DNA of 64,000 nt from Nocardioides nematodiphilus. Its GTDB lineage: Bacteria > Actinomycetota > Actinomycetes > Propionibacteriales > Nocardioidaceae. Of this stretch, positions 62,463-64,000 are shown piece after piece; position 1 is the stretch's first letter, and every line of letters starts with the position of its first letter. The translations under genes and the position numbers were made by a program. Under the pieces are notes generated by a model that was not told the origin of the DNA, made no database searches, and saw only the letters and a list, made by a program, of their open reading frames with translations. Location of the stretch: NCBI RefSeq assembly GCF_020216525.1, contig NZ_JAIWOY010000003.1, forward strand, positions 330,344 through 394,343. The letters are read 5' to 3'.

Positions 62463-62896
62463 TTGATCCCGTGCTTCTTCAAGATGGCCTCGATGTCGTC
62501 CAGGTCGTCGCCCAGGCCGAGATCGGCGCCCGCCGGCGCCTTGCCCTTCACCGCCTTCGCCGGCTTCGCTCGCTTCGCCGCCGCGGGCGCATCGCTGCCC
62601 GCCCCGTTGGACAGGCGCGCCGAGACGCCGATCAGCGCGAACGCGATCACGGCCAGGACCAGGCCGAGCCAGACCACCGGGCTCCAGACGAAACCGGTCG
62701 CCCAGTTGGCGATCGCGGTGCCGATCCGGCCGAAGAGGCGCAGCGTGTGGGTGAAGTACGCGGCCAGCGGCAGCAGCGTGATGCCGCTCCACCGGGCGAG
62801 CGAGGCCGCACCCTTCGCGCGAGCGCGCGTCCAGGTGTAGAGACCCGAGAACAGGGTCAGTGCGAGCGCAAGAGCGCCCCAGGCGACGTCGTCCAT
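62459..62896 (-). CDS. Small multi-span membrane protein
   Basis: 145-aa protein of unknown function with three or four hydrophobic segments (WGALALALTLFSGLYTW, GITLLPLAAYFTHTL, WLGLVLAVIAFALIGV) and a cytoplasmic Ala/Lys-rich tail ending LDDIEAILKKHGIK. ATG 62896 follows GGGAGG by 8 nt. It heads the minus-strand operon with the aldolase-like enzyme and kinase. Confidence 0.72.
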   Translation of the reverse strand: MDDVAWGALALALTLFSGLYTWTRARAKGAASLARWSGITLLPLAAYFTHTLRLFGRIGTAIANWATGFVWSPVVWLGLVLAVIAFALIGVSARLSNGAGSDAPAAAKRAKPAKAVKGKAPAGADLGLGDDLDDIEAILKKHGIK

Positions 62897-62946
62897 AACG
62901 CCATCCTCCCACCCACCCCTCAGGGAGCGCTTGATTGAATGACCGC

Positions 62947-63465
62947 GTGGACCACGACCACCTCCGGCCCGACGCCAAGCGCCTCCAGGCGCCCGCCTTC
63001 CCCGATGACGACGGGACGACCTCCGAGCCGGTGGCGACCGCCTTCGCGGCCTACGCCGCCGACCGCTCCTCGTACCCGCTGCTCCTCGGGGCGCTGAGCG
63101 AGAGCCGACTGCTGGTGCCGGTGGTCGCGGTCCTCGGCGAGGTGGAGTACGACGCGCAGGGGCTCGCCCACGACAAGACCAGTGACATGGCCACCGTCCT
63201 GCTCACCGGGGCCGACGGACGGCAGGCGCTGCTCGCCTTCACCAGCATGGAGACGATGGCCGCATGGCGGCCCGACGCCCGGCCCGTCCCGGTCGCGACC
63301 CGCGACGCCGCCCGCGCCGCGGAGCAGGAGGAGGCGGCCGCCGTCGTCATCGACATCGCCGGCCCGGTGACCGCGGTGATCGAGGGCGAGGACCTGCATG
63401 CGCTGGCGCGCGGCTGGACCCTGACGCGGGTGGGGGAGCAGACCGCGTGGATCGCGCCCGCGTGA
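62947..63465 (+). CDS. SseB-family protein
   Basis: 172-aa soluble protein resembling the SseB N-terminal domain family; function unknown. Segments ESRLLVPVVAVLGEVEYDAQ, MATVLLTGADGRQALLAFTS and VVIDIAGPVTAVIEGEDLHA fit the family. GTG 62947 is preferred to TTG 62935: TTGAAT, 6 nt upstream, could be a -10. It lies just before infC, as in several actinobacteria. Confidence 0.78.
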   Translation: MDHDHLRPDAKRLQAPAFPDDDGTTSEPVATAFAAYAADRSSYPLLLGALSESRLLVPVVAVLGEVEYDAQGLAHDKTSDMATVLLTGADGRQALLAFTSMETMAAWRPDARPVPVATRDAARAAEQEEAAAVVIDIAGPVTAVIEGEDLHALARGWTLTRVGEQTAWIAPA

Positions 63466-63480
63466 ATTGGTTCACGCGGG
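63457..63480 (+). terminator. 10-bp hairpin at end of SseB-like gene
   Basis: CCCGCGTGAA (63457-63466), TTGG loop, TTCACGCGGG (63471-63480): perfect stem that includes the stop codon. No T-run. It separates the gene from the infC promoter. Confidence 0.55.
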
Positions 63481-63490
63481 AATCCTCCGG

Positions 63491-63735
63491 TAGTCTCTCG
63501 TGTTGACCGAGCAGTTGACATCCGTCAGCTGCTCTACAAGCGGAGACAGCGACACCGTTTCCCACCCGCATCGACCAAGGCAGCACAGGTCGTCGGGTCC
63601 GGTCCAGGAGTAGGAATCAGAGGATATCTGGGTCCTGTCTTCCGGTGTGAGCCATGGGAATTCTTCCCCCGTGGCCCGCAGTGACTGGCTTCCGCTTGGA
63701 CAAGCGGAAGCCTTTTTTCGTTCTCTGGAGGACAC
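63491..63735 (+). promoter_or_regulatory. infC promoter and structured leader
   Basis: TAGTCT (63491-63496) is a likely -10, with TTGGTT 18 nt upstream (63467-63472). The transcribed leader of over 200 nt has an early hairpin GAGCAGTTGAC/GTCAGCTGCTC (63509-63519/63524-63534, one G-U pair), a mid region without an obvious ORF, and the terminator at 63687-63718. This layout is that of a leader with transcription attenuation. Confidence 0.65.
63687..63718 (+). terminator. Attenuator: intrinsic terminator before infC
   Basis: GGCTTCCGCTT (63687-63697), loop GGAC, AAGCGGAAGCC (63702-63712), then TTTTTT (63713-63718). A perfect 11-bp stem with a six-T tail, only 8 nt before the GGAGG of infC. As it precedes a gene's ribosome site it should act as an attenuator rather than an end terminator. 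Confidence 0.85.
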
Positions 63736-64000
63736 ATCAGCACCGAGCTTCGTATCAACGACCGGATCCGAGTACCCGAGGTCCGCCTCGTTGGTCCCAA
63801 CGGCGAGACCGTCGGCATCGTGCCGACCGGCGACGCACTGCGCCTTGCTCAGGAGGCGGACCTCGACCTCGTCGAGATCGCCCCGATGGGCAAGCCCCCG
63901 GTCTGCAAGCTCATGGACTACGGCAAGTTCAAGTACGAGAACGCGCAGAAGGCGCGTGACGCTCGCCGTAACCAGACGAATGTCGTCATCAAGGAGATGA
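63736..64000 (+). CDS. infC: Translation initiation factor IF-3 (3' end outside window), ATC start
   Basis: N-terminal domain of IF-3: [20 protein letters not shown], then [28 protein letters not shown] and [12 protein letters not shown]. The frame has no ATG, GTG or TTG between the stop at 63682-63684 and the conserved N terminus. ATC 63736 lies after GGAGG (63727-63731) with a 4-nt gap. AUU/AUC starts in infC allow autoregulation because IF-3 itself rejects non-canonical starts, as established in E. coli. The gene runs off the window end; rpmI and rplT usually follow. Confidence 0.92.

Follow-up and report, generated by a model that had tools for sequence, protein, structure and literature searches.

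The infC-rpmI-rplT operon at the right-hand end of the window (the whole 64,000-nucleotide stretch of Nocardioides nematodiphilus DNA analysed here) is preceded by a long leader, which is predicted to form a transcription attenuator. A ligand, most likely the ribosomal protein L20, would stabilise an aptamer-like fold within this leader and cause termination before infC. We put the probability of this reading as a whole, with L20 as the presumed ligand, at about 0.6; that the leader contains an attenuator at all, as judged from its sequence, appears very likely. Counted from the expected RNA start, the leader is about 235 bases in length. The gene upstream, on the same strand, encodes an SseB-domain protein and ends at 63465, and the genes for L35 and then L20 follow infC past the end of the window. 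If the reading is correct, a defined RNA element would balance IF-3, L35, and L20 in Actinomycetes, antibiotic producers included.

Terminator and predicted fold of the infC leader

The original prediction placed an 11-bp hairpin followed by six T between the promoter and the ribosome-binding site of infC. This element was recovered at 63687-63718 of the plus strand, in the form of a perfect 11-bp stem (63687-63697 with 63702-63712), a GGAC loop, and the T-run at 63713-63718, and is identified as an intrinsic terminator from sequence, fold, and comparison with relatives. When both strands of the 64-kb window were scanned for a perfect 11-bp stem with a loop of 3-8 bases and six T at most 2 bases behind, this hairpin was the sole match. 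As in an attenuator, it stands between the promoter and the coding sequence. For comparison, leaders were extracted by patterns from 183 of 197 loci, giving 176 distinct sequences; terminators of -15 kcal/mol or lower were detected in 133 of the 176, against 8.0% of shuffles. After clustering, 29 of 108 representatives, several Microbacteriaceae included, were without a clear terminator, indicating that in these leaders the output works otherwise or that the scan missed the terminator.

The segment 63503-63718 folded at -101.7 kcal/mol; its shuffled versions averaged -73.85 (z = -5.33; none of 200 was as good), and the centroid structure was identical to the minimum free energy structure. Both contain an aptamer-like fold of four stems, P0 to P3, at 63505-63604 of the plus strand. 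The outermost stem P0 (63505-63508 with 63601-63604) and P1 (63509-63519 with 63524-63534) are taken from the predicted fold; P1, with 11 pairs including one G-U, is the second hairpin that the original prediction had expected early in the leader. P2 (63542-63547 with 63557-63562, to which the consensus adds the pair G63540-C63563) and P3 (63564-63568 with 63594-63598, inner part 63572-63576 with 63588-63592) are supported by both fold and covariation. In an alignment of 49 diverse sequences out of 125 pattern-matched loci (one row, L032, was shortened at its 3' end by the extraction pattern), 97.0% of the P2/P3 cells were paired, and 39 cells were doubly changed, as against a shuffled mean of 12.5; none of 500 shuffles reached 39. 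When the pairing was slid out of register, the level of paired cells fell to 33-59%. The letters AAG.GG, UCCCACC, and GGU were invariant in all 49 sequences.

The covariation of P0 was sought in 90 of the 108 cluster representatives. At least four pairs, mostly GACC with GGUC, are possible in 77 of the 90, with a mean of 4.53 against 3.78 in shuffles; at p≤0.05 only 9 of the 90 passed, barely above shuffles. P0 is conserved and weakly supported, without backing from covariation.

Conservation extends through the family and beyond. In a draw from the genus, this stretch was matched in 58 of 59 genomes, in many of them first over the coding part, with separate pieces in the leader. Alignment of 70 distinct Nocardioidaceae leaders gave several strongly conserved blocks. 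Among 65 further actinobacterial loci with a located infC start, [CT]CCCACC was detected within 420 bases upstream of the start in 63, by inspection nearly always within the same block context. In several leaders from Microbacteriaceae and their kin (L048, L051, L054, L060, L070-L072, and L074), P2 and P3 were kept and no clear U-tract terminator was seen before infC; the output there may be translational or Rho-dependent.

Alternative pairing of the switch strand

A near-repeat of the terminator 3' arm, CAAGCGGAG, is located at 63537-63545 of the plus strand, partly within P2. When the leader was folded only as far as 63700, with the terminator 5' arm present and its 3' arm absent, this switch strand paired with UUCCGCUUG of the 5' arm (63690-63698, plus strand), and both P0 and P2 were undone. 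Addition of the 3' arm restored the aptamer fold and the terminator. The two pairings are mutually exclusive, and the leader carries by its sequence an antiterminator of the kind expected for an attenuator.

Sequence controls were then applied to 140 leaders with a terminator of -12 kcal/mol or lower. The pairing between switch strand and 5' arm was better than that with shuffled arms (p≤0.05) in 57 of 60 leaders of the Nocardioides group and 4 of 5 of Aeromicrobium. In the remaining 75 terminator-bearing leaders it was better in 42 and failed to beat shuffled arms in 33. After clustering, 79 of the 108 clusters were subjected to the same test, and 56 of the 79 representatives passed at p≤0.05. 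For 47 of the 79, the region from the switch strand to the terminator held no rival 17-mer that paired equally well. When a leader's own arm was ranked among foreign arms, it did better than their median in 62 of the 79 and fell within the best 10% in only 17, indicating that lineage-specific compensation is present but modest. The attenuation layer that the original prediction proposed is supported by the enrichment of terminators and gains from these data a candidate antiterminator, which the prediction had not contained.

From these pairings the following mode of regulation may be proposed. Without ligand, the switch strand would leave P2 and pair with the terminator 5' arm, and RNA polymerase would read on into infC. 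When free L20 is in excess over rRNA, L20 would bind the P2/P3 region, lock P2, and free the terminator, and transcription would then stop near 63718. Full transcripts would be under a second repression, by IF-3 acting at the AUC start.

Promoter elements

A -10-like element of a housekeeping promoter, TAGTCT, is present at 63491-63496 of the plus strand, from which the RNA start is expected near 63502-63504. The pattern TANNNT was detected in 63 of 65 leaders of the Nocardioides group (21.6% of shuffles) and in 104 of 111 others (30.5% of shuffles).

In addition, GGAAT (63479-63483) and GTT (63502-63504), separated by 18 bases on the plus strand, form a match to the SigR consensus. Its general form, GGAA[TC]-N17..20-GTT, was enriched mainly in the Nocardioides group, with 50 of 65 leaders against 0.8% of shuffles, compared with 9 of 111 others against 0.5%. 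A sigma factor matching SigH_actino (351.7 bits; cut-off 251.55) is encoded by the same genome. For Streptomyces, one promoter of infC is described as a SigR target (PMC5472188). The SigR-type match of the window overlaps the 5' end of the leader. As a conjecture, RNA started from it would begin past the P0 strand and might weaken the switch, P0 itself being a weakly supported stem.

The position of the RNA start bears also on the involvement of translation. The original prediction had named L20 or translation status as possible triggers. Attenuation through translation of a short upstream frame would draw on the GTG at 63500, which opens 37 codons in the window; GTG is found at this place in 25 of 52 leaders having TTGACCGA. 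The codon is, however, located at or before the expected 5' end of the RNA. Moreover, the spacing between TTGACCGA and the switch strand, taken modulo 3, was 0, 1, and 2 in 20, 11, and 21 of the 52 leaders, and the stops stood at scattered places. The reading frame is not conserved across these leaders and a leader peptide is unlikely; of the two triggers, L20 is the likelier, and translation of an upstream frame is disfavoured to the point of being hardly credible.

Association of the leader core with infC in Actinomycetes

For a wider search, a covariance model of P2/P3, designated R1, was employed. The window and its relatives belong to the training set of R1, and their scores are therefore partly by construction. 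The genome of origin gave one strong match (46.1 bits); a second match of 17.8 bits was rejected, as no IF-3 gene was found there by pattern. In a draw of 197 genomes of the class, R1 matched 171 at E≤0.1, some of them weakly, and IF3_N was found in 189; in some genomes a second, weaker R1 match was listed. For 118 genomes both positions were among the matches listed (120 R1 rows, minus two without an IF-3 row), and in all 118 R1 preceded IF3_N on the same strand, at a distance of 80-269 bases.

In a draw from the phylum, R1 was found, among the matches listed, in 20 of the 21 class genomes (the genome of origin included) and in 8 of 225 outside the class. An IF-3 gene was located downstream in all 20 class matches, including one leader (L151) that was counted because its IF-3 gene was in place, although the switch-strand pattern failed. 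Six of the eight matches outside the class were rejected for lack of an IF-3 gene by pattern; the other two had one.

This linkage bears on a simpler view of the hairpin, namely that it does no more than end the transcript of the SseB-domain gene, which lies upstream on the same strand, as a 3' terminator, or is a constitutive partial terminator. A promoter-like site intervenes between that gene and the hairpin, the core element travels with infC across the class, and the upstream neighbour in M. tuberculosis, lysX, is described as divergent. The alternative pairing, too, would be useless to such a terminator. We consider this view very improbable.

Relation to Scr1601 of Streptomyces

One form of this leader is already catalogued under another description. 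In a Streptomyces-like locus (L145), Rfam family RF02830, Scr1601, matched positions 1380-1605 of the minus strand with 171 bits (cut-off 100), from 5 bases after the -10-like element through the six T behind the terminator. Matches above the cut-off were found in 15 of the 197 class genomes, which are all 15 genomes drawn from the Streptomyces-like genus, and all 15 overlapped R1 matches. A leader from Microbispora (L079) gave a weak match of 27.7 bits, and neither the window leader nor its genome gave any match. In Streptomyces-like genomes, Scr1601 covers this same leader from its start to the T-run; it differs in being filed as an sRNA gene and as a family without a match in the window. 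A further Rfam match on the minus strand, to EBER1, scored 24 bits (cut-off 50) and was regarded as chance.

We infer that the Scr1601 sRNA detected in Streptomyces is the terminated infC leader. It might instead be an independent trans-acting sRNA, not a by-product of regulation, as is implied by its Rfam type, "Gene; sRNA", and by the inclusion of Scr1601 among 11 S. coelicolor ncRNAs with confirmed expression (PMC8388888). According to the same report, the S. ambofaciens homologue was found within a UTR and was missing from the sRNAs predicted in that study (PMC8388888). The alternative pairing with the terminator arm and the linkage to infC also argue against an independent function, which we hold to be very improbable. 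The attenuator proposed here is known in type but built on another RNA; if it operates as predicted, the catalogued Streptomyces sRNA would get a corrected meaning. No paper on an actinobacterial infC attenuator was found in searches of open-licence papers, mostly of their listings.

A broader proposal, which we regard as speculative and rather unlikely to hold in full, is that a switch structurally unlike known L20 leaders controls the infC operon throughout Actinomycetes, that Scr1601 is its terminated product and no sRNA in its own right, and that in Nocardioides the SigR-type promoter bypasses the attenuator under oxidative stress, with RNA that starts past 63508 and is without the P0 strand.

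Candidate ligands

Given an attenuator, L20 would probably be its ligand, because L20 is reported to promote termination in the leader of the same operon in B. subtilis by stabilising the terminator (PMC6097659, PMC10931766). The B. subtilis leader (RF00558, L20_leader), as described, shares with the window leader the operon, a structured leader, a rho-independent terminator before infC, and alternative structures. The two are different RNAs, and L20 is for the window a presumed ligand. Comparison with known L20/infC leader models, as the original prediction had proposed, did not bring out a relation: RF00558 had no match up to E=5 at 62800-64000 of the window, and was above its gathering cut-off in none of the 197 class genomes, 12 of which had weaker matches. 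In a control set, matches were obtained in 4 of 14 genomes including B. subtilis, two of them above the cut-off. The 12 genomes with sub-threshold matches, the f85 genomes and G466 among them, were mostly small; one of these matches, G466:C17:6834-7033, was found on both strands of the same place.

The known L20 site is described as two consecutive G-C pairs plus an AA dimer, as in 23S rRNA (PMC7247131). The invariant AAG.GG and UCCCACC fit this description loosely. In a search for rRNA mimicry at the 23S gene of the same genome, covering 3,019 bases, AAGYGGA occurred twice and GTGGAG six times, while UCCCACC was absent; the resemblance is weak. One AAGUGGA and one GUGGAG are located 71 and 57 bases, respectively, before the reference pattern, presumably near helices 40-41, but neither word is confined to that site within the stretch searched.

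This unconvincing mimicry, together with the fact that the class R1 matches are tied to infC, leaves room for the same attenuator to respond to another ligand that stabilises the fold, such as IF-3 itself, L35, some other part of the ribosome, or a small molecule. In E. coli as well as in B. subtilis, however, genes of the infC cluster are reported to be regulated by L20, and the L20 leaders that have been described include several with unrelated structures (PMC7247131). Another ligand is a less probable choice, to be kept in mind as the chief alternative for this part of the reading. With L20 as ligand, the leader would likely offer this regulator a new scaffold. The element also makes it directly testable which factor controls the long infC leader of actinobacteria.

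A likewise long and abundant infC leader is described for M. tuberculosis, where the RPKM of the UTR is 2.6 to 4.9 times that of the gene (PMC3207917). The authors suggest that it holds regulatory elements with analogues in E. coli and B. subtilis, and the homology given in that account is to the infA UTR (PMC3207917).

Initiation codon of infC

The original prediction had IF-3 coding begin at ATC 63736 with no canonical start in frame, and the sequence agrees. The ATC at 63736-63738 is preceded by a Shine-Dalgarno sequence, GGAGGA (63727-63732, plus strand). There is no canonical in-frame start upstream, and the first canonical codon in the open frame is GTG 63820, 28 codons into the gene, with no earlier ATG, GTG, or TTG; the arrangement is that of a non-canonical AUU/AUC/AUA start. 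The product initiated at ATC is 227 amino acids long, with both IF3_N and IF3_C above the Pfam cut-offs. Its gene occupies 63736-64000 of the plus strand and continues past the window end.

By our own rule, the start codon was ATC in 167 of the 176 distinct leaders, ATT in two, and GTG in two; of the rest, two had another codon shortly before ATC and three were unclear. AUC initiation of infC is known in kind, the ATC start being in print for Streptomyces together with repression by IF-3 at the non-canonical infC start (PMC5472188). The second layer of the original prediction, discrimination of the start codon by IF-3, would fit these counts and the Streptomyces report. What the window shares with the autoregulation at AUU in E. 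coli infC and at ATC in Streptomyces infC is a non-canonical start on infC; the likeness lies in the codon.

The two GTG starts, which are apparent ones, belong to Lentzea (L049 and L064), and two other loci (L050 and L044) had no clear start codon at the usual ATC place. Two copies of infC (C12:47443 and C5:29682) were observed in one genome, G020, which is marked as 7% contaminated; this is probably due to contamination.
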